From assembly GCF_018476525.1 (NCBI RefSeq), contig NZ_JAHCST010000005.1, positions 229,987 through 293,986 of the forward strand: a stretch of DNA of 64,000 bases. The letters are read 5' to 3'. Under the pieces are notes generated by a model. The model ran no database searches. It was given only the letters and a program-made list of their open reading frames with translations, and was not told where the DNA came from. The stretch's first letter is position 1, and every line of letters starts with the position of its first letter. The position numbers and the translations under genes are program-made. Source of the DNA: Acrocarpospora catenulata. Its GTDB lineage: Bacteria; Actinomycetota; Actinomycetes; Streptosporangiales; Streptosporangiaceae. Shown here in pieces: positions 41,441 to 57,003 of the stretch.

Positions 41441-42354
41441 GTCCTGACCTCCTGCCCGCTCGTCTCGGCGACGTCCAGGAAGATCTCTTCGAGCGTGGCC
41501 TGGCGGACGTCGAGGCCGCTGATCCGCACGCCCCGGCTCTGCGCCCAGCCCAGTACGGCGTGCGCGACCGACTCGGGCTCCGCCGTGACGATCACGCACC
41601 GCCGGCCCGTCACGGTCAGCGTGCCCGACTCGCCCACCGGCAGTCCTTCGGGAACCACGCCGTCGGGCAGCTCGAAGGCGACCCGCCCCGAGCCCTGCCC
41701 GAGCACCTCGGCCATCGTGCCGTGCACCACGATCCTGCCCTTGTCCATGATGGCCACCCGGGCGGCCAGCTCCTGGGCCTCCTCCAGGTAGTGCGTGGTG
41801 AGCAGCACGGTCATCCCCCGGCCCGCCAGATCCCTGACCAGGTCACGGACCCGGCGCCTGGCCTCGGGGTCGAGACCCGTGGTCGGCTCGTCGAGGAAGA
41901 GCAGCTCGGGGTGGCCGAGCGTGGCCAGCGCGATGTCGAGCTTGCGCCGCTCCCCGCCGGACATCCGCTTGACCCGGGTCCCCGCCTGACCGGTGAGCCC
42001 CACCAGGTCCAGGGCCTCGGCCACGGGCCTGGCGTTGGAGGTGAACCTGCGCCAGGCCGCCACCGTCTCGGCCGCAGACAGGTCGCCGAACAGGCCGGAC
42101 TCCTGGAGCACCAGGCCGATCCTGGACCGCAGCGGGCCGCGGTCGGCGGGGTCGTGGCCGAACACCCTGGCCGTGCCCTCGGTGGCCTTGAGGTAGCCCT
42201 CCAGGATCTCGATCGTGGTGGTCTTGCCGGCTCCGTTGGTGCCGAGCAGGGCGAACACCTCGCCCTTGCGGACGTCGAAGGAGATGCCGTCCACGGCGGT
42301 GAAGTCCCCGTATCGCTTGCGGAGGCCCGCGACCTCGATCACCGTCTCGCTCAT
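41437..42354 (-). CDS. ABC-2 transporter ATP-binding protein
   Basis: The 305-residue protein has Walker A (G-T-N-G-A-G-K-T-T-T), Q loop (V-L-Q-E-S-G), signature (M-S-G-G-E-R-R-K-L), Walker B (L-L-F-L-D-E-P-T-T-G-L-D) and H loop (T-T-H-Y). A C-terminal extension of about 90 residues is usual for drug-resistance ATPases (DrrA-like). Its ATG overlaps the stop of the precursor gene (ATGA), so precursor and pump are made together. Confidence 0.92.
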   Translation of the reverse strand: MSETVIEVAGLRKRYGDFTAVDGISFDVRKGEVFALLGTNGAGKTTTIEILEGYLKATEGTARVFGHDPADRGPLRSRIGLVLQESGLFGDLSAAETVAAWRRFTSNARPVAEALDLVGLTGQAGTRVKRMSGGERRKLDIALATLGHPELLFLDEPTTGLDPEARRRVRDLVRDLAGRGMTVLLTTHYLEEAQELAARVAIMDKGRIVVHGTMAEVLGQGSGRVAFELPDGVVPEGLPVGESGTLTVTGRRCVIVTAEPESVAHAVLGWAQSRGVRISGLDVRQATLEEIFLDVAETSGQEVRT

Positions 42355-42656
42355 CCCGTGGTCTCCCCGGGGTCGATGTAGTAGGTGGCAGCGGTGGGAA
42401 TGGTGACGCAGCTGACCGAGCTGACGCTGTAACCGGCCGCGGACTCCAGGTTGGCGATGTCGAACTCGCCGTCGGGTTTGGCGGGCAGCGGCGGAGTGGG
42501 CACGCCGTCGGGGTAGACGATGCCGTACTGGCTGAGCACGGTTCTGGGGTCGGTCTCGTAGCGCTCCCGGAGCTCACCGTCGCCCCACGCCGCCGCGATC
42601 AGTCGGGCGAACTTCTTACGATCCTCATCTCCGAGAATGTAGATGCTCTCGGCCAT
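42351..42656 (-). CDS. RiPP precursor A with nitrile-hydratase-like leader
   Basis: The 101-residue protein starts MAESIYILGDEDRKKFARLI and has the NHLP-type leader (about 1-75; A-A-W at 22-24, V-P-T-P-P-L-P-A-K-P, then E-S-A-A-G). The core is Y-S-V-S-S-V-S-C-V-T-I-P-T-A-A-T, then a tail ending D-P-G-E-T-T-G. It has four Ser, several Thr and one Cys, so azole and dehydroamino acid formation are possible but at most one thioether ring. I use ATG 42656 (GGGAG 6 nt upstream), not the TTG at 42662. The leader is nearly the same as precursor D while the cores differ completely. The gene lies directly after SagB and is coupled to an ABC-2 pump. Confidence 0.85.
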   Translation of the reverse strand: MAESIYILGDEDRKKFARLIAAAWGDGELRERYETDPRTVLSQYGIVYPDGVPTPPLPAKPDGEFDIANLESAAGYSVSSVSCVTIPTAATYYIDPGETTG

Positions 42657-42761
42657 CGACAACTCCCGTTCTCTCCGTTAGCGGGGTCTCTCACCTGCAA
42701 CGATCCCGAATACCGGCAGGGGCGGGCAGATGCAGACGACACCTGTCACCCATGACGGACA

Positions 42762-44126
42762 TCACGAACCGGGCACACGAGGGGCGCCGCCGATGAGGAA
42801 GTCCCCGACCGAGGACTCCGTGGCCCAGTCGAGCCCGAAGGTCCGGGCCGCCAGGTCGGCGTCGCCGCTGCCGAGGCCGCAGGGCGCCATCCCCATCGCG
42901 GTGGCCACCAGGTAGAGGGTCTGGTAGAGCACGCCGACGTTCTTCAGCGTGGCGGCGTACGCCAGGCCGGAGTACTTCCACGACATCCGCCGGAAGCGCG
43001 AGGTCATGGTGATGAGCACCTCGGGCTGGGCGGTCCCGCCCGTCGACACGCTCGCGGTGGCCAGCATCGCCCGCGCGTCCTGGTCCCTGGCGGGCAGCCT
43101 GATGAGCCGGTGACCGAACGGGTCGTAGTAGTAGACGCCGCTATCCAGCCCGTCACATCTGCCGACGGTCAGGTACAGCTCCAGCTCGTAGGCGGCCCCG
43201 CCGCCGGGGTAGGGACGGCTGCTGGCCTCGTACGGCATGCCGGGCGCCGGCCCGAAGACGCCCCTGACCCGGGCCACCCGGTAGAGGAACTCGCCGAGCC
43301 GCCGGACCGTGAGCGGCTCGTCCGCGTACGCGCGCACCGACCGGCGCGACTCCAGCACCGTGGTGAACGGGGGATCGGCCGCGGCGGCCGCGTCCAGCGA
43401 GGGCCGGAACAGCTCCACCGCCGGGCCCTCGGGCAGCGGCTTGGCCACCGGCTCGGGCGGCTCCTCCGCGAGGAACCGGAAGGTCGCGCCGAACGGCTGG
43501 TCGTGCCGCCCCACCCGGGTCCTGCTGTGGAAGAGCAGGTCGTGGAACTCCCAGGCGCGGAGCGCGGGATGCTCCTCCTCGGCCTCGTCCGCGCCCGCCA
43601 GACCGGCCGCGACCAGGTGACCGAGCGCCTCGGGCGCCTCCTTCACCAGGACCCCACGGCCGAGCGCCGCGATCAGCGGCATGGCCTCCTCGGTCAGCGT
43701 GACCCGGTGCCGCGACAGCGGGGACTCCAGGATCAGTCCCTCGCCCGACCTGCGCACCAGCGCGAACCGGGACAGCCGCACGGTGTCGTCGGCGGACAGC
43801 GCGGGCGGCTCGAACACCGCGTCGCGGGCGATCGGGACCACCCGCAGCAGCGGCTCCAGCGCATGGACCAGGACCGGGCGCAGCCGGGACAGCGCCAGAT
43901 AGAAAAGGGCGACCTCCTGGCTCGTCCCGCCCGCCGCCAGCAGCCGCTCCGCCAGCTCGTCCTCGTCGGCCAGCGTGCCGGGAAGCTCCTGGAGCAGCGC
44001 GGCGATGCCCGGGGTCAGGCCGCGGGCGGTGACCGTGCCGAAGGGGTGCGTGATGGTCAGCACACCGTCCGCCCACGCCAGAACGGCGTCCTCACGCAGG
44101 CCGATCAGGCGCGTTGGGGGGTTCAT
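42762..44126 (-). CDS. SagB-type FMN dehydrogenase (azoline oxidase)
   Basis: The 454-residue protein has an N-terminal region of about 230 residues with no motif I can name and a C-terminal nitroreductase-fold domain. That domain includes E-S-R-R-S-V-R-A-Y, Y-P-G-G-G-A-A-Y-E-L-E-L-Y-L, S-G-V-Y-Y-Y-D-P and the conserved A-M-G-M-A-P-C-G-L-G near the end. SagB/McbC enzymes oxidise thiazolines and oxazolines made by a YcaO enzyme to azoles with FMN. The ATG overlaps the YcaO stop (ATGA), so the pair is coupled. It strongly implies azole rings in at least one product of this locus. Confidence 0.88.
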   Translation of the reverse strand: MNPPTRLIGLREDAVLAWADGVLTITHPFGTVTARGLTPGIAALLQELPGTLADEDELAERLLAAGGTSQEVALFYLALSRLRPVLVHALEPLLRVVPIARDAVFEPPALSADDTVRLSRFALVRRSGEGLILESPLSRHRVTLTEEAMPLIAALGRGVLVKEAPEALGHLVAAGLAGADEAEEEHPALRAWEFHDLLFHSRTRVGRHDQPFGATFRFLAEEPPEPVAKPLPEGPAVELFRPSLDAAAAADPPFTTVLESRRSVRAYADEPLTVRRLGEFLYRVARVRGVFGPAPGMPYEASSRPYPGGGAAYELELYLTVGRCDGLDSGVYYYDPFGHRLIRLPARDQDARAMLATASVSTGGTAQPEVLITMTSRFRRMSWKYSGLAYAATLKNVGVLYQTLYLVATAMGMAPCGLGSGDADLAARTFGLDWATESSVGDFLIGGAPRVPGS

Positions 44127-46372
44127 AGGAACATCGTGATGGGGTTCATCCGCTCCTCCGGGGTGGGCTCGGACAGCCAGCCGAGCTGGACGGGCACGTC
44201 GTAGAGGCGGCCGGGTGCCAGCCGCCGCCAGAAGTGGCGGAGCCCCGGCACGATGACCTTGACCACGGGCAGGCCGATGTCGGGCCGGGTCTGGTCCAGG
44301 ACCAGCATCTCCATGCCGCGCTCCTCGACCAGGGCGCGGGCCGCGGCGACGTCGTCGAGCAGGTCCCCGGTGGCGGGTCTGGCGTACGCCGACGCGAGCA
44401 CGGGCGATCCGCCGGGCATCAGGTAGGGGTGTGCCGCCATGCGCGCGTGCTTCCACCAGTTGAGCTGGTCGCTCTCGTGGAACCGGTACTGGGTGGCGCC
44501 GTCCGGTCCGACGTCGATGACCGCCGGGATGAACTGGTTCATCTCGGCCAGCGCCCGCTGGACGGCGATCCGCACGTCGAAGTGGGCGCCGAAGGCCATG
44601 AGGATGTCCTCGCTCGGCCCCTCGACGCGGCGGCTGATCGCGGCGGCCACCGGGACGCCCAGGTCGGTGGTGAGGTCGAGCACGTGCAGCTCGCGGCCGA
44701 GCCCCGCGTAGACCTCCTGGAACTCGGTCATCCACGGGTCGGCGAAGCTGCCGAGGTCGAAGGCGGGACGGGTGACCCGGTTGTACCACCACAGGCCCAC
44801 CGCGTCCCGCTCGACGAGTTCCATGAAGCCCTGGACCACGGCGTCCTCCAACGAGGATCCCGCGGCGTTGCCGTTGGAGTCGGCCCAGGCGTAGACCGGT
44901 CCGGCGGGGGAGAGGTCGCGGTGGTAGTAGTACAGGTAGCCGGTGGGCAGGTACTTGTGCCGCCGCTCGGTCAGCGACCACACGGGCGTCCACTCCAGCA
45001 CGGCGTCCTCGTCGAGGGGATCGTTGACGTAGTCGTAGCTGGAGGTCGCGCCCAGTTCCCGCCGGGTGCGGTACTGCGCCTGGCTGTAGAGCGAGCACGC
45101 GTTCGGGTGGACCGCGTCCGCGCCCAGCTCCCGGAAGCTGGCCTCGCGCCTGGCCTCGTCCCCCTGGAAGATGCCCGAGTAGCGTTCCATCGCCTCGCAC
45201 ATGGCGCTGACCTTCGCCTGCAGGTCGGTCGTGCCCTTGCCGGCGCTCTGGCTGCGCAGGCCGCTGCGGAGCCCGCGCAGGTCGCGGATCTGCCGGGAGA
45301 AGTTGTGCCCCGCCACGTACGTCTTGACGAAGGGCGTTCCGGTGTCCAGCCTGGTGAGCTCCTTGACGACGCCGGTGACCGGGCTGACGAGGTGGCCGTA
45401 CTGCTCGACGGTGTCCTCGGGGTGCCGGGAGCGGTGGCCGCCGTCGGCCGTGAAGGTCTTCGGCCGGGAGCGCAGGTCGACCGGCCGCCCGGCGGCCGCG
45501 GCCATCAGCCCCGGGTCGCCGCACTCGGGGCACTGCGGCCTGCGGCGCAGCGGGTGGCGGGTGGTGCCGAGCCGCTGGGTGTCGAAGGTGATCACGTCGC
45601 GCTGCTGTTCGCTCCTGGCCCCCGCCAGCCACTTCACCACCTCGGCCGCGACCAGGCGCGTCCCCGCGTCACGCGTCAGCGGCAGGTCGGCGGTGGGCAG
45701 GGTCAGCGGACGCGCGCTGCGCAGCCGGTTCTCCAGGTAGTTCACCGACTGCCGGTGCCCTTCCAGCCGCTGCGTCAGGCAGCGCCAGCAGCCGCTCTCG
45801 CCCGGCTGGAAGACGGGCCCCAGCCACAGGACGGGGCCCGTGGGGCGGGCCAGCAGCCACGGCCGTCCCTCCGCCAGGTGACGCCTGTTGATCTCGGCGA
45901 GTTCCCCGTGGAGGTAGTCGTCGGTCAGCACCACGGTCAGCACCCCTGGCCCGGGGCCGGTGACCGCCACTCCCTCGGCGGCGAGCAGCCGTCGCAACTC
46001 CTCGCCCGGTACCTGGCCCACCGTGAGGACCTCGGCCCGCCCGTTCCGTACGCCCGCGACCGCCGCCTCGGCCTGCTGACCCGCCATCTCCCAGTAGGCG
46101 GCCGTGCCCCGCTCCAGGTCCTCGGTGACGTCGACCAGCAGGTCGCGCGTCCTGAGCTGGTGGAGCACGTAGTAGACGTGCTCGGGCGGGATGTCGGGGT
46201 CCACCGCGGTGAGGATGTCGGAAACGGTGTGCTTGCCGTCGAGCAGACCCGCCACCGCCTCGATCGATCGGCCGGTGAGCAGGTGCAGGTCGCGCTCGGA
46301 GATCAGGAAGACCCCTTCTCCGTCGATGGTCTCCACGCGGAAGTGGCGGCGGAATGCTGGCCGGGCGTCCAT
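44123..46372 (-). CDS. Fused YcaO cyclodehydratase (TOMM/azole-forming)
   Basis: The 749-residue protein has an N-terminal winged-helix-like leader-recognition region (about 1-85), an E1/ThiF-like partner region with two zinc-type pairs C-W-R-C (195-198) and C-P-E-C (281-284), and a YcaO domain (about 330-749). The YcaO ATP-binding parts are visible: S-A-G-K-G-T-T, A-M-C-E-A-M-E-R-Y and F-M-E-L-V-E-R-D-A. Such fused proteins make azolines from Cys, Ser or Thr using ATP. The usual proline-rich C-terminus is not obvious (it ends N-P-I-T-M-F-L). AAGGA precedes the ATG. It lies 10 bases after the LanM-like gene and overlaps the SagB gene. Confidence 0.92.
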   Translation of the reverse strand: MDARPAFRRHFRVETIDGEGVFLISERDLHLLTGRSIEAVAGLLDGKHTVSDILTAVDPDIPPEHVYYVLHQLRTRDLLVDVTEDLERGTAAYWEMAGQQAEAAVAGVRNGRAEVLTVGQVPGEELRRLLAAEGVAVTGPGPGVLTVVLTDDYLHGELAEINRRHLAEGRPWLLARPTGPVLWLGPVFQPGESGCWRCLTQRLEGHRQSVNYLENRLRSARPLTLPTADLPLTRDAGTRLVAAEVVKWLAGARSEQQRDVITFDTQRLGTTRHPLRRRPQCPECGDPGLMAAAAGRPVDLRSRPKTFTADGGHRSRHPEDTVEQYGHLVSPVTGVVKELTRLDTGTPFVKTYVAGHNFSRQIRDLRGLRSGLRSQSAGKGTTDLQAKVSAMCEAMERYSGIFQGDEARREASFRELGADAVHPNACSLYSQAQYRTRRELGATSSYDYVNDPLDEDAVLEWTPVWSLTERRHKYLPTGYLYYYHRDLSPAGPVYAWADSNGNAAGSSLEDAVVQGFMELVERDAVGLWWYNRVTRPAFDLGSFADPWMTEFQEVYAGLGRELHVLDLTTDLGVPVAAAISRRVEGPSEDILMAFGAHFDVRIAVQRALAEMNQFIPAVIDVGPDGATQYRFHESDQLNWWKHARMAAHPYLMPGGSPVLASAYARPATGDLLDDVAAARALVEERGMEMLVLDQTRPDIGLPVVKVIVPGLRHFWRRLAPGRLYDVPVQLGWLSEPTPEERMNPITMFL

Positions 46373-46382
46373 GAGGTTCCTT

Positions 46383-49300
46383 TCAGTGCACGAGTCGGAG
46401 CGAGGCGACCTGGTCGTCGGCCAGCCGGAGGAGGGTGAGGCCCGCGGCGGCCAGCCCGTTGACGGCGGACAGGGTGAGCCGATCGGCGCGCCGCCGGTCG
46501 GCGAACCAGCGGCCGGTGTGACTCCGGCGGTTCAGCAGCTCGGCGGTCAGCTCCCTGGCGGACCGCGCCGTCGCCGGATCGCCGGTCAGGCGGGCGGTGT
46601 GGATCGCGACCTCGGCGTCCACCACGAGCCGTACGCAGGCGCGTCCCGAGGCGGGCGCGCAGTGCCTGGCCACCCGCTCCCGGAGCGCGTCGGGGACCTC
46701 CCCGGTGAGGGTGTGGGCCGTGGCGACCGCGGCGAGCAGCGAGCCAGGCGTGCCGAGACCGAAGCGGTGCGCCAGCAGCGGGGCGAGCGCCGCGCCGGTC
46801 TCCCCGAGCGCGGCGGCGCTGGCGGCCAGCGCCCACACCAGCCCGTCCACGCCGGTGGGCAGCCCGTCGAGGGCGGGCACCCCCGGCGGGTACGGCGGCC
46901 GGGACGCGGCGCCCGAGGCGAGCTCGGCCAGCAGCTCCGCATGGAGCCGCGCGGCGAGCGCGTCGGCCGCGGGAACCGCCACGGGGGAGGCTTCGCGCAG
47001 TTTGTGCAGGGCCAGCAACAGTCCCGCCCGGCCGAGCACGGGCTCGGCCGAGGTCGGCTTGGCCAGCTCGCTCTCCGCCAGCGGCACCAACCCGGCCGCC
47101 CGCTCCACCAGCCGGGGGTCGGCCAGCGCGCCGCCGCAGCGGCTCAGCGCGTAGATGGCGGAGCCGATGCCGACGAAGGCCCCGACGGGGGCCATCGCCC
47201 CGCACATCCTGCGGTAGAAGCCCGACTGGGGGGCCAGCGTCACGAACTCGACCGAGGCGTCCAGCGCCTCCTGCGCGGCCGTCCAGTGGCCGGGGGCGCC
47301 GGTGTTGGCGTACAACTCGGCGAGGAAGACGGCCAGGCCCGCCGTACCGGTCAGCAGGTCACCGTGGAGGGGTTCGATCTGGTCGAGACCGTGCGCGGGG
47401 TAGGAGACCACGCCCATCCAGGCCGACCGGTCCTCGCCGAGCGGCACGGCGGCGGCGAGCACCTCGTCGGCCACCTCGCCCGCGCGGGCGAGCAGCACCT
47501 CGGCCGGCGGCTCCTCCCGCCGGCCAGACAGGTCGTAGGCGTGCAGGCCGATCTCACGTACCGTCCGGGGCCGTCGCCCGGCACTGGGGAACGAGGTGGG
47601 CAGTTCGCCCGCGCCGGTGATGTCGAGGCAGGTCTCCAGGACCGCGAGGTGCTCCGCCAGCGGGAACCCCGCGAGGTCGGCGACCCGGTCCTGGAGGCGC
47701 TGCCAGGCCGTACCCGCGAAGTGCCCGGGGATCTCGACGCCGTCGGGCGTGAACACCGAGTCAGAGTTCGGCCTGGCGGTGAAGAGCGGGACGTCCATCC
47801 GGCGGAACGCGTCCATCTCCTGCTCGATGATCTCCAGGATGTCGGTACGCCCGGGGTCCACCCGGAGCGTCCCCAGGGCGCTGCGGAACACGTGGGCCAG
47901 GCAGATCTCCCTGGCCACGCCGTCGATCAGCGCGCCCGGGCCGACGCTCGTGCGGAGCAGGTCGACGCAGTCCCAGGTGCTGCGCCAGATGTAGCGGACC
48001 GGCGCGTCCCTGAGCAGGGCCAGCGGCCCGCGCGGGTCGGCCAGCAGCTCCTGGTTGCGGGCCAGGCAGTCCTGCATCTGCCGGTAGCCCTCGGCCACCT
48101 CGTCGGCGTAGTGGCGGGGGTCGGCCAGCTCGCCCGCGCCCCACGTGGGCCGGTACGGCGGCGCCTCCCAGCCGAACGGAAACCCCTGGGAGTTCTGCGC
48201 GACCTGTTCCTGGAGCGCGGCCAGGCAGCCGATGTCCTGCGCCTGGACACCGCCCGCGATCACTCGGGGGAAGGTGACGACGGCGGTCTTGGCCACCGTG
48301 TCCTCGACCCTCCCCCACAGGGACTGGATCCGCTCGCCGATGAGGGTCGGCTTGCTGATGCGGGCCTGCAGGACGTTCTCCAGGTCGATGAAGACCGGTG
48401 TGTCGCCCATCGCGACCAGGTTGTCCGCCCACAGGTCGCGGCACTCCAGGAACTGGGCGAGTCTGGCGAACATGCCCAGGCGCGTGTAGTAGCGGCGGAC
48501 GCTGGCCTCGTCGGTCCCCGGCTCGGCGGTGACGTACTCCTCCCAGCCGTAGCCGTCGCGCAGCACGACCTCGCGGGTGTGCAGGGGGAGCGCCAGCCCG
48601 TGGTTGTTGAGCAGGGCGCACACGTCCATCACCCCGGCCACCGAGCGCAGGTCCTTCGGCTTGTAGACCACGCGCTCGCCCGAGGCGAAGGTGAGCAGGG
48701 TGACCACCCTGCCGTGGTTGTGCGGGTCGCCCGAGTCGCCGGAGTACCCGGTGACGGGGCCGGGGGAGGCCCAGCTCCACAGCGTCCTGCGCAGGTCCGG
48801 CAGGTCGGCGCCGAGCCGGTCGAACAGCTCGTGGACCACGCGCCGCCACTGCAGGCACGTCATGCCCATCACGTAGGCGAGCCCCGGCAGCGTCTCCAGC
48901 CGGTCGAGCCAGCCCGACTGGCTGACGTCCAGGCCGGGGCTCTGCAGCCAGGCGGTCACGTCGCCCGCGGTGCCGGCGAGCTGGGCCTCGAACGCGAACC
49001 CCGCGAAGCACACCTGCGTCAGGCGCTCGACGAGCTGGCCCGCGATGTCCTCGCACGCCTCGGCGGTCACCGGCACGCCGCGCACCGTCCCGTCGTTGAT
49101 GTCGACGAGCCGGTTCACCGCCCGCCGGAACGCCACGAACGGGGCGCCGGGTCGCCCGGTCGCCGGGTCGGACGCGGCCGTGGGCGGCTGCGCGAGCAGG
49201 AAGTCCACCAGGGCGTACGCCCAGTCCGGCAGCCTGCGCGGATCGGCCACCCGGACGTCGACGAGCCCGGCGCCCAGGTCACGGCCCGAGCGCCTGCGGT

Positions 49301-49544
49301 GGTGGAGCACCGCCCGCTTCGCGTCCTCGTCGTCGCCCACGGCCGCCCTGAGCCAGCGCTGGGTGCGCTCGGACGCCTGGCGCAGGCCGCGCCCCACGAC
49401 CGGGACGAAGAACTCGCCCGCCACCCGTTCGTGGAAGGGCGCGGCGGCCGCCAGCACGGCTATCAGCCGCTCGTCCCCGCCGGGGACGGCGAGCAGCCCC
49501 TCGCTCTGCGCTTCGGCGTTTCCCTGGTGAACCGGGACCGGCAT
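46383..49544 (-). CDS. LanM-like lanthipeptide synthetase with degenerate cyclase
   Basis: The 1053-residue protein has a LanM dehydratase (about 60-640) and a LanC-like C-terminal domain (about 740-1053). Dehydratase residues seen include G-D-P-H-N-H-G-R (272-279), V-V-Y-K-P-K-D-L (K295) and D-L-W-A-D-N-L then F-I-D-L-E-N (370-390); the usual D-L-H-x-E-N His is Trp372. In the cyclase half the zinc motif is gone: where C-H-G is expected there is V-N-G (about 1028-1030), no W-C-x-G is visible, and an H-G-x-x-G-equivalent reads T-G-V-D-G. It should phosphorylate and eliminate Ser/Thr but may not close thioether rings. GGAGG precedes the ATG, one base after the ABC stop. Confidence 0.88.
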   Translation of the reverse strand: MPVPVHQGNAEAQSEGLLAVPGGDERLIAVLAAAAPFHERVAGEFFVPVVGRGLRQASERTQRWLRAAVGDDEDAKRAVLHHRRRSGRDLGAGLVDVRVADPRRLPDWAYALVDFLLAQPPTAASDPATGRPGAPFVAFRRAVNRLVDINDGTVRGVPVTAEACEDIAGQLVERLTQVCFAGFAFEAQLAGTAGDVTAWLQSPGLDVSQSGWLDRLETLPGLAYVMGMTCLQWRRVVHELFDRLGADLPDLRRTLWSWASPGPVTGYSGDSGDPHNHGRVVTLLTFASGERVVYKPKDLRSVAGVMDVCALLNNHGLALPLHTREVVLRDGYGWEEYVTAEPGTDEASVRRYYTRLGMFARLAQFLECRDLWADNLVAMGDTPVFIDLENVLQARISKPTLIGERIQSLWGRVEDTVAKTAVVTFPRVIAGGVQAQDIGCLAALQEQVAQNSQGFPFGWEAPPYRPTWGAGELADPRHYADEVAEGYRQMQDCLARNQELLADPRGPLALLRDAPVRYIWRSTWDCVDLLRTSVGPGALIDGVAREICLAHVFRSALGTLRVDPGRTDILEIIEQEMDAFRRMDVPLFTARPNSDSVFTPDGVEIPGHFAGTAWQRLQDRVADLAGFPLAEHLAVLETCLDITGAGELPTSFPSAGRRPRTVREIGLHAYDLSGRREEPPAEVLLARAGEVADEVLAAAVPLGEDRSAWMGVVSYPAHGLDQIEPLHGDLLTGTAGLAVFLAELYANTGAPGHWTAAQEALDASVEFVTLAPQSGFYRRMCGAMAPVGAFVGIGSAIYALSRCGGALADPRLVERAAGLVPLAESELAKPTSAEPVLGRAGLLLALHKLREASPVAVPAADALAARLHAELLAELASGAASRPPYPPGVPALDGLPTGVDGLVWALAASAAALGETGAALAPLLAHRFGLGTPGSLLAAVATAHTLTGEVPDALRERVARHCAPASGRACVRLVVDAEVAIHTARLTGDPATARSARELTAELLNRRSHTGRWFADRRRADRLTLSAVNGLAAAGLTLLRLADDQVASLRLVH

Positions 49545-49545
49545 C

Positions 49546-51765
49546 TCAGACCTCCTGTCGGCGGACCATGCGGGCGAAGAGCTGGTTCTGGTCCACCAGC
49601 GCCTCGAAGGAGCCGCTGGCGGCGACCCTGCCCTGGTCGAGTACGTAGATCCGATCCGCCGACCTGATGGTGCTCAGCCGGTGCGCGATCACGATCCTGG
49701 TGATGTCAAGCTCGGCGATCCTCCGGCTGACCAGCGCCTGCGTGAGGTTGTCCAGGGCGCTGGTGGCCTCGTCGAGGATGAGGATCCGGGGCCGCTTCAC
49801 CAGCGCTCTGGCGATGAGCAGCCGCTGGAGCTGGCCTCCGGAGAAGGAGGCGTTGTCCTCGCTGACGACGGTGTGCATGCCCATCGGCATCAGGGCGATG
49901 TCGCCGTCCAGGTCGGCGAGGCGGGCCGCCCGCCAGGCGTCCTCCTCCGTGGCGCCGGGCACGTCCCCGATGATGTTCTCCAGGATCGCGCCCCGGAGCA
50001 CTCTGGCCTGCTGCATCACCACGCCCACCTGGGCGCGGAGCCGGCGCAGGTCGAGGTCGCGCAGATCGCCCCCGTCGTAGAGGATCTGGCCGGTGCGTGG
50101 CGGCTCGAAGCCCAGCAGGAGCCGTACCAGGGTGGACTTGCCCGCGCCCGAGGGGCCGGTGACCGCGACGAACTCGCCCGGCCGGAACACCATCGACACG
50201 TCGTCGAGAATCCGCTTCGTGGTGCCGGGGTAGGCGAAGGAGACGCCGCTGAGCCGTACCAGTCCGGTCAGCTCGCCCGGGTCCTTCGCCCCCGGCGGCG
50301 TCTCGGGCGCCCGTTCCAGCAGCGGCCGCAGGCGCGCGAACCGGGGCAGCAGGGCGAAGGCCGCCTCCACCGCCCGGTTCATCTGGCCGAGCGCGAGCAC
50401 GAACTGGCCCAGCGCCACGGCGGCGATCACGAAGGAGACCGCGGGCACGCCCAGGGCCAGTCCGGTCACCGCGAGGAGGAGCAGCAGCGTCGGCTGTGCC
50501 GCGGCGCCGATCGCCGCCGACACCGCCTGCTCGCGCCGCGCGGCGGCGGCGGCGCGCTGCTGCGTGGCGAACAGCCGCGCCCAGAGCCCGAAGACCTGCG
50601 CCTCCCGGCCCGAGACGTGGATTTTGTCGATCGCGGTGAGGCAGGAGTACAGCAGCGAGTAGACCTTCCCGTACTGCTCGTGGGTGACCAGCTCGTGCCG
50701 CTGCTGGCGGGCCGCGCGCACGGCCAGTACGGCCAGCAGCGCCACCACCCCGCCCAGCGCGGCCAGCGCGAGACGCCAGTCCACGGCCACCAGGACCAGC
50801 AGGCCGAGCAGGGAGAACACGCCACCCAGGAGCGAGTTGACCGCGGCCTCCCCGAGCGACTTGCGCATGTCGGAGACGGCGTTGGCCCGCTGGACCAGCT
50901 CCCCGGTGCTGTACTGGGCGAAGAACGGCAGGTCGAGCGAGACGAGATGGCTCCAGACAGCGGGTTCGAGCCGCTCCTGCAGGCGGCCCTGCACCCGGAC
51001 GAGCACCGAGTTCCGTACCGCGAGGAGCATGGCGCTCGCGCACACCGCGCCCGCGATGACCACGGCGATCCAGACCATCCCCGGCCGGTCGGCGGGGTTT
51101 CCCGCGGCGCTCAGCAGGGCGAAGGTGAACAGGGGGACGCCGAGCGCGAGCAGCGCGGCGCCACCCCCGGCCGCCAGCAGCCAGGCCAGCTCCCTGCCCG
51201 CGCCGCGCAGGCCGAACCTGAGCAGGGCGAGCGGCGAGGTGATGCCTTCGCCGAGCGGCGGGTAGACCTGCCAGGCGTCCGGGGCGAGGGTGGCGGCCAC
51301 GTCCTCGGTCACCCGGCGCACGTCCGCGGCCGGGTCGGCGATCCGGTAGCCGCCCCGGTGCGGGAGGAGCGCCACGGGCCGCTCGCCCTCCCGGGTGAAG
51401 CCGACCAGGGGGACGGTGGCCTTCCGCCACCACCGCTCCTCCAGGCGTACGCGCCGGTACCTGACCCTGGCGGCGTCCAGCGCCGCGCCGAGTGGGTCGC
51501 CCGGCGCGGGCCCGATGTCCCGCGCGGTGAAACCGCAGTGGTCGCCGAGCGCCTTGACGACCTCCACGGCGTGGTCGGCGCCCGTACGGGGCGTGTCGGG
51601 CGAGGGCCGCGCGCCCGCGGCGGCCGCGAGGTCGGCGAAGGACCGGCTCAGCGTCTCGCCCGTGGCCGCCACCCTGGCCGCGCGCCAGTCGTCCCGGCCG
51701 GCCTCCGCCACATCGCCCGGCAGGAGCGCCAGCGTCCCGTTCTCGTTGACCGTGGGTCCGTTCAT
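49546..51765 (-). CDS. NHLM-type ABC exporter, ATP-binding/permease
   Basis: The 739-residue protein has a long non-transmembrane N-terminus of about 230 residues typical of the second NHLM transporter, then an ABC-membrane region (about 240-470) and a nucleotide-binding domain (Walker A G-P-S-G-A-G-K-S-T, signature F-S-G-G-Q-L-Q-R, Walker B I-L-I-L-D-E-A-T). These pairs travel with NHLP-leader precursors. Its ATG overlaps the stop of the peptidase-bearing transporter (ATGA). It has no C39 peptidase and probably pairs with that protein. Confidence 0.88.
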   Translation of the reverse strand: MNGPTVNENGTLALLPGDVAEAGRDDWRAARVAATGETLSRSFADLAAAAGARPSPDTPRTGADHAVEVVKALGDHCGFTARDIGPAPGDPLGAALDAARVRYRRVRLEERWWRKATVPLVGFTREGERPVALLPHRGGYRIADPAADVRRVTEDVAATLAPDAWQVYPPLGEGITSPLALLRFGLRGAGRELAWLLAAGGGAALLALGVPLFTFALLSAAGNPADRPGMVWIAVVIAGAVCASAMLLAVRNSVLVRVQGRLQERLEPAVWSHLVSLDLPFFAQYSTGELVQRANAVSDMRKSLGEAAVNSLLGGVFSLLGLLVLVAVDWRLALAALGGVVALLAVLAVRAARQQRHELVTHEQYGKVYSLLYSCLTAIDKIHVSGREAQVFGLWARLFATQQRAAAAARREQAVSAAIGAAAQPTLLLLLAVTGLALGVPAVSFVIAAVALGQFVLALGQMNRAVEAAFALLPRFARLRPLLERAPETPPGAKDPGELTGLVRLSGVSFAYPGTTKRILDDVSMVFRPGEFVAVTGPSGAGKSTLVRLLLGFEPPRTGQILYDGGDLRDLDLRRLRAQVGVVMQQARVLRGAILENIIGDVPGATEEDAWRAARLADLDGDIALMPMGMHTVVSEDNASFSGGQLQRLLIARALVKRPRILILDEATSALDNLTQALVSRRIAELDITRIVIAHRLSTIRSADRIYVLDQGRVAASGSFEALVDQNQLFARMVRRQEV

Positions 51766-53951
51766 GAGGCTTCCTCGACGAGCGCGCGGTAGGGACCGGG
51801 GGCGGTGATGAGTTCGGTGTGCGTGCCGCGCTGGACGACCTCGCCCCGGTCGAGCACGAGGATCAGGTCGCTGTCCCGTACGGTGCTGAGCCGGTGCGCG
51901 ATCACCACGCAGGTGCAGCCTCTGGCCTTCAGGTTCGCGTCCACCAGCGCCTCGGTCTCGGCGTCCAGCGCGCTGGTGGCCTCGTCGAGCACGAGGACCG
52001 AGGGGGAGAGCGCGAGCGCTCTGGCGATCTCCAGGCGCTGCCGTTCGCCGCCGGACAGGTTGCGGCCCCGTTCCTGGATCCAGCCGCCGGAGAGCCCGCC
52101 CCTGCGGTCGACGACCTCGGCCAGCGAGGCGTCGGCGAGTGCCCCGCGCAGCCGGTGCGGCGGGACCGTCGGATCCCAGAGCGTGAGATTGTCGGCCACC
52201 GTGCCCTCGAACACCTGGAGGTTCTGCTCGACGTAGCCCACCGAGGTGGTGAGCGTCTCCCTGGGCGTCTGCTCCCTGGGGACGCCGTCGAGCAGGATCC
52301 GCCCCGACCACGGCCGGACCGCGCCGGTGAGCAGGCGGGCGACCGTGGACTTGCCGCTGCCCGTACGGCCGACGATGGCGACCCGCCGGCCGGGCTCGAC
52401 GCGGAACGACAGCCCCTTGACGACCGGCCCGTGCTGGCGGTCGTAGCCGAAGGTGACCTCGTCGAACTCCACCGTGCCGCGCAGGCCGCCGGCCCGCTCG
52501 GGCGCCTCGGGCAGCGTCGCGTACTGCGGGTCGGGCTCGGCGGTGAGCGCGTCGTCGAGCATGCTGGTCTGCGCGACCACGATCTGCGCCTCGGCGCCGA
52601 GCCCGACCAGCGAGCTCACCGGCACGAGGAAGGCGCCGACCAGGAGCTGGGCGGCGATGACCGTCTCCATGGTGACCTCGCCGCGGGCCATCAGCACCGC
52701 CCCGGTGATCACTATCGCGGCCCCGGCGAGCGAGCCGAGGGCGGCGGGCACCACCAGCAGCGCCTGCGTCACCCGGATGAGGTCCTGGGTGGCCGACAGG
52801 GTACGCGCCGACAGGCCCGCCCACTTGGCGAAGAACCAGCCCTCGGCGCCGTCCGCCTTCAGCGACTCGGCCATCGAGATCCCGTTGAAGGCCATGCTGT
52901 CCCTGCGGTGCTCGTCGAAGATCAGCCGCTGCTGGTGCGGGGCGCTGCGGCGGCTGACCGCGCGCATCGCCACCAGGTTGACCGCCGCCAGCACCGCGGC
53001 GACCGCGGCGAAGGCCGGGTGGAAGAAGAACAGGATCGAGGAGTGCACCAGCATGGCCAGGACCGCCGCGACGGCCGCGGCGACCCGGTCCGACAGGAGC
53101 AGGGCCAGTCCCGCGCCGAAGGAGGTCCTGGTCACCAGGCCGCCCGTCATCCGCCGGTGGAAGTAGTCGCCCGGCAACCTGAGCATCCGCCACAGGTAGC
53201 GGCCAGACAGGTCGGCCGCCATCGCCGTCTGCACGGCGCCGAGCAGCCGCTGCTGCGCCCAGACCCCGGCCAGGGTGAAGGCGGCGCAGCCGAGCAGTCC
53301 GAGCAGCACGGGCGCGGACCAGGTGGGATCTCCCGCGACCAGCACCCTGCCCAGGAGCAGCCGGGTGAGCAGCGAGGTGGCCGCCGCGGGGAGGGCGAGC
53401 GCGAAGGCCATGACGGCGATGGCGAGCAGCGCGGACAGGTACGGACGCACCTTCGCCAGCGCCGAACGGGCCAGGGGGAAGCGTGCCCCGCCCGGCGTGA
53501 AGCCCTCGCCCGGGCGCGGCACCAGCACGATCCCGCTGAACCGCTTCCGGAACTCCGCCCGGCTCAGCCGGATCCTGCCCACGGCGGGGTCGTTCACGTA
53601 CGCCCACCGCCTGCGCATGCCCTCCAGCACCACGTAGTGCCGGTGATCGACGAAGATCATCGATGGGACGGGGTAGGTCTCCAGCTCATCGGCCGCCACC
53701 CGCCAGCCGCTGATGTCGAAGCCGTACTCCTGCGCCGCCGCCTTCAGCCCCGCTCCGGTCAGCCCGTCCCTGCCGACCCCGCACCGCTCCCTGATCTCGT
53801 GCAGGGGTACGCGCAGGCCGTGGTAGGAGAAGATCATGCTGAGGCAGGCGGGTCCGCAGTCGGCGTCCTCCATCTGCGGGCGGCGCTCGGTGCGTACGGG
53901 GCGTGGCCTTTTCGCCGTCTTATCCACGGTTGCCCCCGGGGAAGAGCGCAT
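51762..53951 (-). CDS. NHLM-type peptidase-containing ABC exporter (C39)
   Basis: The 729-residue protein begins with a C39 peptidase (M-E-D-A-D-C-G-P-A-C, catalytic Cys32; D-H-R-H-Y-V-V-L with the His; N-D-P with the Asp). It continues with about six membrane segments (about 160-430) and an ABC domain (G-R-T-G-S-G-K-S-T, L-S-G-G-E-R-Q-R, V-L-V-L-D-E-A-T). C39 peptidases cleave leaders at double-Gly-type sites, which fits the A-A-G, S-G-G and S-A-G-G leader ends of the four precursors. It is coupled to HlyD upstream and to the second ABC gene downstream. Confidence 0.92.
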   Translation of the reverse strand: MRSSPGATVDKTAKRPRPVRTERRPQMEDADCGPACLSMIFSYHGLRVPLHEIRERCGVGRDGLTGAGLKAAAQEYGFDISGWRVAADELETYPVPSMIFVDHRHYVVLEGMRRRWAYVNDPAVGRIRLSRAEFRKRFSGIVLVPRPGEGFTPGGARFPLARSALAKVRPYLSALLAIAVMAFALALPAAATSLLTRLLLGRVLVAGDPTWSAPVLLGLLGCAAFTLAGVWAQQRLLGAVQTAMAADLSGRYLWRMLRLPGDYFHRRMTGGLVTRTSFGAGLALLLSDRVAAAVAAVLAMLVHSSILFFFHPAFAAVAAVLAAVNLVAMRAVSRRSAPHQQRLIFDEHRRDSMAFNGISMAESLKADGAEGWFFAKWAGLSARTLSATQDLIRVTQALLVVPAALGSLAGAAIVITGAVLMARGEVTMETVIAAQLLVGAFLVPVSSLVGLGAEAQIVVAQTSMLDDALTAEPDPQYATLPEAPERAGGLRGTVEFDEVTFGYDRQHGPVVKGLSFRVEPGRRVAIVGRTGSGKSTVARLLTGAVRPWSGRILLDGVPREQTPRETLTTSVGYVEQNLQVFEGTVADNLTLWDPTVPPHRLRGALADASLAEVVDRRGGLSGGWIQERGRNLSGGERQRLEIARALALSPSVLVLDEATSALDAETEALVDANLKARGCTCVVIAHRLSTVRDSDLILVLDRGEVVQRGTHTELITAPGPYRALVEEAS

Positions 53952-54657
53952 CCACGGGCCGGACGACCGCGACGGTGATCTCCGCCGACACCGGGGTGAG
54001 CGTGGCGCCGGGCCAGGCCGGGCGGTCGAGGTCGACGGTCACCAGGTACCGGCCGTCCGCCCGCAGCGCCTCGCCGAACAGTGGGCGGAGCAACTCGCCT
54101 GAGGCGGGGTAGGGATCGACGTCGCGCACCCGTCCCTGCCCCGTGCCGCCCGTGCCGCCGACCGTGACGGGCTGTCCGGCGGTGAGCGCGCCGACCCGGT
54201 CCTGGCCGACCAGGAGCAGCGCCCGCAGTGGTCCGGTGACCGGATCGACGACCGCGACGGTGCCGCCCACGGCGACGGTGGCGCCGGGGGCGGCGGTACG
54301 GAGCACCCGGCCGCGCGCCGCCGCCGTCACCACCCGCCTGTTCCCCCGCTCGTCGGAGAGCACGGCCAGCGGGGTCCCCGGGGTCACCTCCTGCCCCGCG
54401 CGGACCAGAACCTCGGCCAGGCTGCCGGACACGGGGGCGGCCACCCGCACCGGCCCGCTCCCCGCCACCAGCACGCCCGTGGCCAGGACCACGTCGCGGA
54501 CCTGCCCCAGCAACGCCCAGCTCGCCCCGCAGGCCGCGACCAGGAGAAGGGCGAGCGCGGCGAGCCAGGCCTTGGTCCGCACCGTGGCGACGAGCTGGTC
54601 GATCCGCTCGCCGCCCGGCGTCTCGACCGCGGGCATGGTCATTGCGGGCATGGTCAT
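53920..54657 (-). CDS. NHLM-type HlyD/membrane-fusion secretion protein
   Basis: The 245-residue protein has one N-terminal membrane segment (about 31-52), then a lipoyl-like hairpin pair (V-R-V-A-A-P-V-S-G-S-L-A-E-V-L-V-R-A-G and A-A-R-G-R-V-L-R-T-A-A-P-G) and a beta-rich C-terminus. This is the short HlyD-type adaptor that accompanies NHLM exporters. The ATG at 54657 overlaps the precursor B stop (ATGA). Its 3' end overlaps the next transporter by 32 bases. Confidence 0.85.
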   Translation of the reverse strand: MTMPAMTMPAVETPGGERIDQLVATVRTKAWLAALALLLVAACGASWALLGQVRDVVLATGVLVAGSGPVRVAAPVSGSLAEVLVRAGQEVTPGTPLAVLSDERGNRRVVTAAARGRVLRTAAPGATVAVGGTVAVVDPVTGPLRALLLVGQDRVGALTAGQPVTVGGTGGTGQGRVRDVDPYPASGELLRPLFGEALRADGRYLVTVDLDRPAWPGATLTPVSAEITVAVVRPVDALFPGGNRG

Positions 54658-54950
54658 TGGGGGGCCTTCGTCTGCGGCGTCTCCATCAGGCAGAAGCACA
54701 GGCTGAGCATGCAGGGCGGCGGCGGAAGCTCGCCCCCGGAGAGCGTTTCGACGACCAGTTCGGCGCTGGGCTCCGGGGGCAGCGCCGGCGCGCGGACCCC
54801 GTCGGCGAGGGGGATGTCGTACTCGGCCAGGACCGCGGCGGGCTCGCGCTCGTAGCGGAGCCTGAGCCCGGCGTCGGACCACGCCCGCGCGGTGAGCTCG
54901 CCGAATCCTCTGCGCTGGGCGGTGTCCCAGCCGATCGTGTGCACAGTCAT
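54654..54950 (-). CDS. RiPP precursor B with NHLP-like leader
   Basis: The 98-residue protein has a leader of about 73 residues: A-R-A-W-S-D-A-G-L-R at 21-30, R-Y-E-R-E-P-A-A-V-L-A-E-Y, L-P-P-E-P, ending E-T-L-S-G-G at 69-73. The core is E-L-P-P-P-P-C-M-L-S-L-C-F-C-L-M-E-T, then P-Q-T-K-A-P-Q, with three Cys in C-x4-C-x-C. The start has GGGAGG at a good distance. A 14-bp hairpin with the conserved AGTCCAGAT-type loop lies 40 bases upstream. Its stop overlaps the HlyD gene. The leader is the same type as in precursor C, next to it. Confidence 0.82.
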   Translation of the reverse strand: MTVHTIGWDTAQRRGFGELTARAWSDAGLRLRYEREPAAVLAEYDIPLADGVRAPALPPEPSAELVVETLSGGELPPPPCMLSLCFCLMETPQTKAPQ

Positions 54951-54989
54951 CACGGGCCTCCCGCGGCGTGTTGTGAGATGCTGCATCGA

Positions 54990-55024
54990 CGGGGTGGTGG
55001 GCATCTGGACTGCCCACCACCCCG
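54990..55024 (-). promoter_or_regulatory. Strong hairpin between precursors C and B
   Basis: A perfect 14-bp stem with a 7-nt loop lies 20 bases after the precursor C stop and 40 bases before the precursor B start. Read on the minus strand, stem and loop contain GCAGTCCAGATGCCC, which recurs in the hairpin before precursor D. It may be a partial terminator or RNA processing element setting a high precursor-C to downstream-gene ratio. Confidence 0.75.
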
Positions 55025-55044
55025 CTCGGAAGTGCTGGGAACTC

Positions 55045-55341
55045 TCAGGTGGTCTGGCCGGAGAAACATCCGGTGGGGCAGCTCACGGTGCCGATCGTGC
55101 CGAGGGCGCCGCCCGCCGAGGACTCCAGGCTCTCCAGGTCGATGGCCTGGTCGGAGCCGGCGGGCAGGTCAGGCAGGTCGGGCAGGGGGAGCTCGCCCGG
55201 CCAGTCGACGCCCGCGTCCGCGAGCGTGGCGCGCGGGTCTCGCGCGTAGTCCCGCCTGATCGACTCATCTGACCAGGCGCGGGCGAAGAACCGGGCGAGC
55301 TGGGTGCGTAGTTCGGGGGACAGCGTCGAGTCTTCCGGCAT
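55045..55341 (-). CDS. RiPP precursor C with NHLP-like leader
   Basis: The 98-residue protein has a leader (F-F-A-R-A-W-S-D-E at 18-26, R-D-P-R-A-T-L-A-D-A-G, L-P-D-L-P, ending E-S-S-A-G-G at 73-78). The core is ALGTIGTVSCPTGCFSGQTT, with two Cys and seven Ser/Thr. GAGG precedes the ATG. It is the first precursor of the main operon, with the 30-nt bipartite element about 115 bases upstream and nested stems (CTCCGGG/CCCGGAG around CGGAC/GTCCG, about 55361-55399) in its leader. Confidence 0.85.
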   Translation of the reverse strand: MPEDSTLSPELRTQLARFFARAWSDESIRRDYARDPRATLADAGVDWPGELPLPDLPDLPAGSDQAIDLESLESSAGGALGTIGTVSCPTGCFSGQTT

Positions 55342-55455
55342 GATGTCACCTCGTTGGGAGGCTCCGGGTCGGACACCTGTGGGTCCGCTCTCCCCGGAGG
55401 TCGGGAGGGGGACCGCCTGTGACCTCCAGTTTTGTCACCGGCGTCGACGCGAGCC

Positions 55456-55485
55456 AGAACCAACTAACACGGACATATCGTGATA
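55456..55485 (-). promoter_or_regulatory. Conserved 30-nt element upstream of precursor C
   Basis: AGAACCAACTAACAC-N8-CGTGATA matches the element at 56818-56847 (AGAAACAACTAACAC-N8-CGTGATA) in 21 of 22 fixed positions with the same 8-nt spacer of unrelated sequence. It lies 115-144 bases upstream of the precursor C start, against 123-152 for precursor D. A promoter or response-regulator site is inferred. Confidence 0.7.
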
Positions 55486-55506
55486 TTCATCATGTCCGGC
55501 GGTGGA

Positions 55507-56262
55507 CTACGGGAGTCGTTGCTCCCGATGCGCGAACTCGCGCATCTCCCGCTGGGCCTCGCGGGCCACGTCGAGCATGTCGCGCAGCTCCTTCCTGAGG
55601 CTCTCGGCTTCACCGTCCGCGGCGTCGAGCACCCGGTGGCCCCGCGCGGCGATGGTGTCCAGGCGGCTGCCGAGGATCCCTTCCAGCTCCCGCATCGCCC
55701 GCGCGCGCTGCGCCGCCACCTCCACCGCGACGAGTTCGGCCCTGGTCGCGTAGAGCACCCTCGCCGTCTCCACGAAATGCGTGAGCGCCGCCAGCGGGAT
55801 GGACGCCACCGCGACGGTCAGGATCCACGACAGGGCCGTCGCCGGATCGTCCCCGAGGGCCAGCGACTTGGCCATCTCCACCAGGAGCACCAGCCCGAAC
55901 GCCGGCAGCGCGTACGGCCGGGCGAGGAGTCCCAGCGCCGTCGCGGCGAGCAGGATCCCCGGCGCGGACCACCATTCGCCCAGGAACGGCAGCGGACCAT
56001 AGACGAGGAGCGCCATCGCCCCCGCCACCCAACTCAGCCGGCTTCTGCGCAGGCCCGGGAAGCTGGCCGAGACGTAGAGGGCGACCAGCGCGGTCGCCAG
56101 GATCACGGCGGGAATCGCGCGAGAAGGGCCGTCCTGGAGGTAATGCGCGAACGTGCCACCCATCAGGAAAAGGGCGAACGCCGCAATGGCGGCGCGGCCG
56201 AGCCGCACCTCGAGCGGTGCGCGAACGGCCGTCCGCAGTCCGGGAGCCCCCGATCGGGTCAC
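55507..56262 (-). CDS. Truncated sensor-kinase-like membrane protein
   Basis: The 251-residue protein has about five hydrophobic segments (about 24-160), followed by a helical region aligning with HisKA_3 helices of the kinases at 37627 and 39483. Where those have E-L-H-D-x-L-G, this has E-L-E-G-I-L-G, so the phospho-acceptor His is Glu194. The protein stops soon after and lacks a HATPase domain. It cannot be an ordinary kinase. It may form dead heterodimers with one of the two kinases or act as a signal-binding decoy, which is inference. It lies between precursors C and D, just downstream of the precursor D terminator and upstream of the precursor C element. Confidence 0.75.
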   Translation of the reverse strand: MTRSGAPGLRTAVRAPLEVRLGRAAIAAFALFLMGGTFAHYLQDGPSRAIPAVILATALVALYVSASFPGLRRSRLSWVAGAMALLVYGPLPFLGEWWSAPGILLAATALGLLARPYALPAFGLVLLVEMAKSLALGDDPATALSWILTVAVASIPLAALTHFVETARVLYATRAELVAVEVAAQRARAMRELEGILGSRLDTIAARGHRVLDAADGEAESLRKELRDMLDVAREAQREMREFAHREQRLP

Positions 56263-56318
56263 AAACGGATCATGACAACCCAGCCCGGTGAAGGCAACGG
56301 GTCACGGGGGTTGGACGT

Positions 56319-56352
56319 CCTGGGAGCGCGCAGGCGGAACCACGCTCCCAGG
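56319..56352 (-). terminator. Hairpin after precursor D
   Basis: A perfect 10-bp stem CCTGGGAGCG / CGCTCCCAGG with a 14-nt loop lies 20 bases beyond the precursor D stop. It resembles a split CelR palindrome, but the 14-nt spacing excludes operator function. Confidence 0.7.
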
Positions 56353-56371
56353 ACAGGTCACCCGACGTCGC

Positions 56372-56695
56372 TCAGGAGTCCAGCCCGCAGCCGAAGGTGG
56401 AGGCGGTGCCCAGGCAGCCGCCGATGGTGCTGATCGTGCTCGCGGAGCCCAGGCAGCCCTCGGCCTCGGCGCCCGCCGCGACCTCCAGCTCCTCGACGCT
56501 GAACTCGCCCTCGGGCCGGGCGGGCAGCGGCGGCGTGGGCACGCCCTCGGGGTAGCTGATGCCGTACTCGGCCAGCATGGTGCGGGGCTCGTGGCCGTAG
56601 CGGGTCTTGACCTCGCCCTCCGACCACGCGGCGGCGACCAGCCGGGCGAACTTCTTGCGGTCCTCGTCACCAAGAACGTAGACGCTTTCGGCCAT
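56372..56695 (-). CDS. RiPP precursor D with NHLP-like leader
   Basis: The 107-residue protein starts MAESVYVLGDEDRKKFARLV and has the same leader as precursor A (about 1-75; V-P-T-P-P-L-P-A-R-P, E-E-L-E-V-A-A-G). The core is different: A-E-A-E-G-C-L-G-S-A-S-T-I-S-T-I, then G-G-C-L-G-T-A-S-T-F-G-C-G-L-D-S. It has three Cys, and the segment C-L-G-(S/T)-A-S-T occurs twice. The repeated motif suggests two modification or ring units. It forms its own transcription unit, with the conserved 30-nt element and hairpin upstream and a terminator downstream. It is divergent from the glycosyltransferase-ABC operon. Confidence 0.85.
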   Translation of the reverse strand: MAESVYVLGDEDRKKFARLVAAAWSEGEVKTRYGHEPRTMLAEYGISYPEGVPTPPLPARPEGEFSVEELEVAAGAEAEGCLGSASTISTIGGCLGTASTFGCGLDS

Positions 56696-56940: not shown

Positions 56941-57003
56941 TCCGCGCGGAGCCCCCCGGAAGACTGAAATTCCGGATTCCTGTTCAGGTGGACTGGAGTG
57001 GAC

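Follow-up and report, generated by a model that had tools for sequence, protein, structure and literature searches.

A dehydrazole-type peptide cluster with four precursors and a zinc-less LanM dehydratase in Acrocarpospora catenulata

Does the pairing of azole-forming enzymes with a LanM-type dehydratase define a new class of ribosomally synthesized and post-translationally modified peptides (RiPPs)? The question is raised by a locus on the minus strand of a stretch of 64,000 nucleotides from the actinomycete Acrocarpospora catenulata (contig NZ_JAHCST010000005.1, positions 229,987 to 293,986; hereafter the window). At positions 42351 to 56695, a first-pass annotation had read one cluster combining an azole-forming YcaO/SagB pair, a LanM-type dehydratase, an NHLM exporter with a C39 peptidase and several precursors with NHLP-type, nitrile-hydratase-like leaders. 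Frames, domains and coordinates bear this out, and the dehydratase is indeed LanM-like and not LanB-like; it scores above the cut-off of TIGR03897. The same annotation stated that no such system had been described. This claim does not hold, because a class of peptides with the same gene set was named in 2023 in Nature Communications, the dehydrazoles, with about 50 clusters reported mostly from Proteobacteria and Actinobacteria (PMC10676384); a described family of this kind is what the annotation itself had named as counting against it. The chemistry is therefore not new, and the cluster belongs to the dehydrazoles, not to a separate class. Some loci of the genome scan presented below may coincide with published dehydrazole clusters.

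According to PMC10676384, one dehydrazole, carnazolamide, has been reconstituted, from the cca cluster of Chryseobacterium carnipullorum. In the order published there, the YcaO enzyme and the dehydrogenase act first, and the LanM enzyme then dehydrates only Ser residues preceding an azole. The enzyme, CcaM, is described as leader-independent, requires its cyclase half for dehydration and makes dehydroalanine, no lanthionine having been found in the work reported; Chryseobacterium and Cystobacter fuscus are both named as holders of such clusters (PMC10676384). In the window, a YcaO protein and a flavin dehydrogenase, both above their curated cut-offs, are encoded beside the LanM. The latter has a DUF4135 dehydratase fused to a cyclase domain devoid of zinc ligands, and it groups with the published taxa by way of the branch carrying Chryseobacterium sp. 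MYb264 and Cystobacter fuscus. Long nitrile-hydratase-like leaders, with scores below cut-off, precede cores rich in Ser, Thr and Cys. We therefore consider it very probable that the locus is a dehydrazole-type RiPP cluster, in which azoles would be made before a zinc-less LanM dehydrates only the Ser that precedes an azole. The product class proposed by the annotation, azoles with dehydroamino acids obtained by a route other than LanB, is that of this closest studied pathway.

The locus is a real, conserved cluster. A scan of a collection with one genome per species gave 164 LanM relatives, of which the best 80 loci were kept; 36 of them also encode YcaO (more than 500 bits to that of the window) and SagB (more than 200 bits), the co-occurrence that the annotation had proposed to look for. 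In the 13 closest loci (L005-L016 and L018, from Nonomuraea, Herbidospora, Sphaerisporangium and Sphaerimonospora), the order p2, p3, HlyD, ABC1, ABC2, LanM, YcaO, SagB is always identical, p1 to p4 designating the precursors and ABC the ATP-binding cassette exporters. Precursors of the p1 type lie upstream in 12 of the 13 (none was found in L005), and precursors of the p4 type lie downstream of SagB in 12 (none in L016). As 13 related loci from other genera share this gene order with few exceptions, the cluster is more than a chance assembly. Its distribution is patchy: a LanM at an E-value of 1e-100 or better occurs in 12 of 297 genomes of the host family, that of the window included, and in 5 of 68 genera, while none of the four other genomes of the same genus covered by the search has one at this threshold.

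The sequence of the LanM points to an enzyme that would still dehydrate. Equivalents of CylM K274, D347, N352, D364, R506 and T512, residues whose catalytic roles are given in PMC4550811, are present and are invariant in 24 aligned LanMs. Phosphorylation and elimination residues are kept, the catalytic His excepted: W372 occupies the position of CylM His349. In its cyclase half, the zinc-ligand columns, read in an alignment of 66 rows, do not hold the ligands; the LanC fold is kept in the structure model, which matches the structures of both CylM and LicM2. The annotation had judged that the ring-closing half looks dead; the absence of zinc ligands stands, but the word is too strong because the corresponding half of CcaM is needed for dehydration (PMC10676384). 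Trp at the catalytic-His position is found in 181 of 208 zinc-less LanMs versus none of 140 that keep zinc (tally by regular expression on 364 proteins, 5 unreadable rows and 11 fragments being put aside), counts that are not independent because the searches were seeded with the family and the proteins and loci overlap. The LanM of Chryseobacterium sp. MYb264 carries Trp at the same position, and the residue was reported earlier for one enzyme, the LanM-like protein of Synechococcus UW179A (PMC10783134). As to the zinc motif WCH, it is present in none of the 36 LanMs accompanied by YcaO and SagB (the frame of L029 is short and its cyclase half unread) and in 37 of the 44 other LanMs of the best 80 loci; the expression used misses variants with Cys-Asn/Tyr/Gln, and nothing can be read from its second pattern.

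In a quick tree of the dehydratase part of 65 LanMs, 40 zinc-less rows lie on one side of a branch with an SH-aLRT support of 100. They comprise the window, its Streptosporangiaceae relatives, Micromonospora, Kitasatospora, Actinacidiphila, Polyangium, Pyxidicoccus, Nostoc KVJ20, Cystobacter fuscus, Chryseobacterium sp. MYb264, Tenacibaculum and others. On the opposite side are 20 zinc-keeping rows and five with altered ligands. A second zinc-less group, formed by three cyanobacterial LanMs (L042, L063 and L079), is nested on the zinc-keeping side and retains the His. YcaO and SagB accompany the LanM in L042 and L063; in the latter, a Cys is still present in one of the four ligand columns. That Trp is essential for a zinc-less LanM to act beside YcaO was considered and is rejected on account of these two enzymes. 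Apart from this, in two Nostocaceae LanMs (L066, L072) the first zinc-ligand Cys is replaced by Ser, with no YcaO in the flanks fetched. A protein of 946 residues, P0184, has no cyclase half and joins a DUF4135 dehydratase to a leader-binding domain and the beginning of a YcaO domain.

What would such enzymes act upon? An NHLP-type profile gave 75 precursor frames in the window and 18 of 37 loci: 42 of the p1/p4 type, 16 of the p2 type, 14 of the p3 type and three resembling carnazolamide. These three (L030, L032 and L033, from the related Nostoc and Polyangium loci) have C-terminal cores of 30 residues, counted manually with the second Ala of three as the first, in which Pro15, Cys17, Cys29 and Ser30 agree with carnazolamide and Ser or Thr occupies positions 7, 10, 20, 23 and 26, the published azole sites. 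The profile found no precursor in L037, L039, L042 and L063; in L042 and L063, Nif11-type precursors with cores beginning with Cys and ending in KW were seen. In all 15 Streptomycetaceae loci (L020-L029, L031, L034-L036 and L038) the same enzymes go with a short non-NHLP precursor instead, where an NGG or SGG end is followed by ISVSSLACAACPVSSFSSVSN or a near variant (three sequences inspected); these precursors come from a comparison of small frames, in which many shadow frames were left aside.

The core of p2 contains an 11-residue stretch, TIGTVSCPTGC, that is invariant in 14 of 14 clusters, namely the 13 loci and the window. Its codons show 309 synonymous and no non-synonymous differences, summed over all pairs; the pN of zero is partly a matter of choice because the stretch was selected by its own motif, whereas its presence in 14 of 14 clusters is not. 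In the p2 leader (52 codons), pN and pS, the non-synonymous and synonymous values, are 0.243 and 0.411. Excluded from the comparison are L017 (Micromonospora) and L019 (Phytohabitans), whose stretches read TIGTVSCPGAC and TIGTVSCPGSC. Judging from its codons, the p2 stretch appears to be under strong purifying selection in actinomycetes, and its identity in 14 of 14 clusters makes p2 a good candidate for isolation. The p1 and p4 cores vary among clusters. As for p3, each of these 14 clusters has it and both L017 and L019 lack it; its core of PC...CFC type is kept in 13 of the 14 (L014 differs). Over 21 mutually dissimilar cores of the p1, p2 and p4 types, Cys or Thr follows Gly 32 times for 16.5 expected, a value reached in 0 of 3000 shuffles, and follows Thr 8 times for 17.1 expected.

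By analogy, we infer the products and the order of reactions as follows. The E1-like domain of the YcaO fusion would serve to bind the leader, and the enzyme would cyclize Cys and Thr, perhaps Ser, mostly after Gly or Ser, as domains and core statistics suggest. SagB, from its family, would oxidize the azolines to azoles. The LanM, if it behaves as its relative CcaM, would then phosphorylate Ser preceding an azole and eliminate the phosphate, and it probably closes no thioether rings. Family membership also suggests that the C39 domain would cut after the AG/GG site and that the exporter would release the product, while a DrrA-like ABC pair might protect the producer. Following this rule, p2 would give a product with four azoles and one dehydroalanine (-98 Da), p1 one with up to seven azoles and three dehydroalanines, and p4 one with one or two azoles and one or two dehydroalanines.

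Several observations weigh against this assignment. The leaders of p1 to p4 score 62, 33, 62 and 62 bits against TIGR04351 (E-values of 2e-17 to 4e-8; cut-off 65), and the NHLP model TIGR03793 gives p1, p2 and p4 only 21, 23 and 24 bits for a cut-off of 51, p3 not being listed. Precursor p3 falls outside the predicted rule because its core lacks a Ser-azole dyad and mostly a GG site: Ser-Cys or Ser-Thr occurs in 0 of 14 p3 cores, GG precedes the core in 2 of 14, and Ser and Thr are few. In the 21 cores, the enrichment of Cys or Thr after Ser is modest (26 for 17.7 expected, 45 of 3000 shuffles) and about equal to that after Leu (10 for 5.3 expected, 73 of 3000). It is nil beyond composition in three Nostoc/Polyangium cores (14 for 13.9), and several Herbidospora p1 cores have neither Ser-Cys nor Ser-Thr. 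CcaM is represented in the tree by a relative from the same genus only; protein searches (best 120 of 167, best 120 of 138 and all 82 matches) gave the MYb264 relative and, among the matches listed, none from C. carnipullorum. Finally, no radical SAM epimerase, methyltransferase or S8 protease was detected by Pfam and NCBIfam profiles among the annotated genes here, whereas all three occur in the carnazolamide cluster (PMC10676384).

Other fates of the cores can be envisaged. The retained LanC fold and the Cys residues of the cores would also suit a hybrid of azoles and lanthionines, in which the cyclase half closes rings without zinc. Class III cyclases do operate without these ligands. We regard such a hybrid as very unlikely, because core Cys residues mostly follow Gly or Ser, as expected of azole sites, and because the zinc-less relative CcaM yields dehydroalanine and, in the published account, no lanthionine (PMC10676384). 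The Trp at the position of CylM His349 could, for its part, mean that the LanM phosphorylates only and leaves phosphopeptides. However, the elimination residues R517 and T523 are retained, CylM H349A had nearly fully modified its substrate after 10 h (PMC4550811), and the MYb264 LanM has the same Trp while its relative CcaM dehydrates; very little credence can be given to this scheme.

A thiopeptide-like route, with macrocyclization of the p1 core, would be suggested by the resemblance of p1 to the thiocillin-family model NF033482, whose cut-off of 25 bits is exceeded by p1 and not by p2 (18.0 bits), p3 and p4 not being listed. It appears extremely improbable, as neither LanB nor pyridine synthase (PF04738, PF14028) has a match on the window's contig (C127); matches to these models in the genome lie only on contigs C171, C160 and C35. 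On C35, LanB-family matches at roughly 81.7-88.2 kb (L002 in part) stand beside a YcaO, so that the same genome also has a LanB-type azole locus.

Like the class II lanthipeptide enzymes CylM and LicM2, the window's LanM joins a DUF4135 dehydratase to a LanC-fold domain, but it has no zinc-binding cyclase site and carries Trp for the catalytic His. Nocathioamides have been reported as chimeric peptides with lanthipeptide and azole features, bearing thioethers and a thioamide. Goadsporin and the thiopeptides likewise unite azoles and dehydroamino acids in one peptide, but they dehydrate by LanB with glutamyl-tRNA (PMC10676384), and the cluster has no LanB-type dehydratase. The Synechococcus UW179A cluster has YcaO, SagB and the Trp-bearing LanM-like enzyme; it differs by a cytochrome P450 and other precursors, and its enzyme is termed LanB-like by the authors (PMC10783134). 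Closest are carnazolamide and the dehydrazoles, with YcaO, dehydrogenase, a LanM with a zinc-less cyclase, an NHLP-type leader and a core rich in Ser, Thr and Cys (PMC10676384). Unlike the carnazolamide cluster, that of the window has four precursors, C39/NHLM export in place of an S8 protease, an ABC pair and a two-component system.

With the claim of novelty corrected, the cluster joins a recently named class of which a single product has been studied. Since carnazolamide is given in its paper as without antibacterial or cytotoxic activity (PMC10676384), a conserved actinomycete member would be better suited to a search for function, and here the conserved p2 stretch adjoins, in the same cluster, an ABC pair fitting self-protection. 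The Trp is a one-residue signature across a large zinc-less LanM branch and offers a handle for tests. It is tempting, though doubtful, to imagine the Trp as an azole sensor gripping the azole after the target Ser, with one leader-independent LanM serving several precursors, a fixed p2 and freely evolving p1 and p4, in each cluster of the Streptosporangiaceae type. If true, the Trp would tie the zinc-less dehydratase branch to azole-bearing cores; the strong form of the idea is weakened because the group of L042, L063 and L079 keeps the His. Three features deserve a test, namely the signature Trp, the invariant stretch of p2 and the unusual p3.

Table 1. Features of the cluster, with window positions; domain calls use Pfam and NCBIfam profiles, the latter judged by curated cut-offs
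Feature	Position	Strand	Evidence
Precursor p1, core AEAEGCLGSASTISTIGGCLGTASTFGCGLDS, three Ser-Thr dyads	56372..56695	-	TIGR04351 61.6 bits (cut-off 65), NF033482 29.0 (cut-off 25)
Membrane protein, no assigned role	55507..56262	-	kept in 13/13 related Streptosporangiaceae loci
Precursor p2, core GALGTIGTVSCPTGCFSGQTT including the invariant stretch of 11 residues	55045..55341	-	core comparison, TIGR04351 33 bits
Precursor p3, Cys-rich core PPPPCMLSLCFCL..., without Ser-Cys or Ser-Thr dyad	54654..54950	-	TIGR04351 62.3 bits
HlyD-like adaptor of exporter	53920..54657	-	PF13437 29.7 bits, PF13533 30.4 bits
NHLM exporter 1 (ABC1) with C39 peptidase, predicted leader cutter	51762..53951	-	PF03412 115.6 bits; TIGR03796 733 bits (cut-off 853)
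NHLM exporter 2 (ABC2)	49546..51765	-	TIGR03797 673 bits (cut-off 709)
LanM-type dehydratase, zinc-less cyclase half (LanMbC type), Trp372 at catalytic-His position	46383..49544	-	TIGR03897 338 bits (cut-off 304), PF13575 271 bits
Winged-helix, E1-like leader-binding and YcaO fusion, 749 aa, predicted azoline formation	44123..46372	-	TIGR03604 262 bits (cut-off 219), TIGR03882 161 (37)
SagB/ThcOx dehydrogenase, predicted azoline to azole	42762..44126	-	TIGR03605 158 bits (cut-off 78), PF22767 76 bits
Precursor p4, core YSVSSVSCVTIPTAATYYIDPGETTG	42351..42656	-	TIGR04351 61.5 bits
DrrA-like ABC ATPase, possible self-protection	41437..42354	-	TIGR01188 237 bits (cut-off 312); 11/13 related loci
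ABC-2 permease, partner of the DrrA-like ATPase	40637..41440	-	PF12698 57 bits; 11/13 related loci
Histidine kinase, start provisional	39483..40718	-	PF07730 54 bits; 13/13 related loci
LuxR-type response regulator	38869..39486	-	PF00072 72 bits, PF00196 34 bits; 13/13 related loci

Along the minus strand, the genes succeed one another in the order of Table 1, and from HlyD to SagB adjacent genes are at most 10 bases apart or overlap by at most 32 bases. Both NHLM exporters stay below their curated cut-offs. The range given by the annotation lies within the cluster but omits the ABC pair, the kinase and the regulator that follow p4, by which comparison with relatives extends it to 38869; inside that range, the genes it named stand and the membrane protein, which has no match in a Pfam search, had been missed. 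On the far side of p1, homologues of the glycosyltransferase at 56998 and of the gene after it are absent from L005-L039, loci that extend only some 1 to 2 kb past p1. A tRNA search of the window and a defence-library search with the LanM and the YcaO gave no matches. The membrane protein sits between p1 and p2 in 11 of the 12 closest loci having p1 and precedes p1 in L014. The DrrA-like ATPase and its permease are absent from L009 and L013, and the ATPase is present in all 15 Kitasatospora, Streptomyces and Actinacidiphila loci compared.

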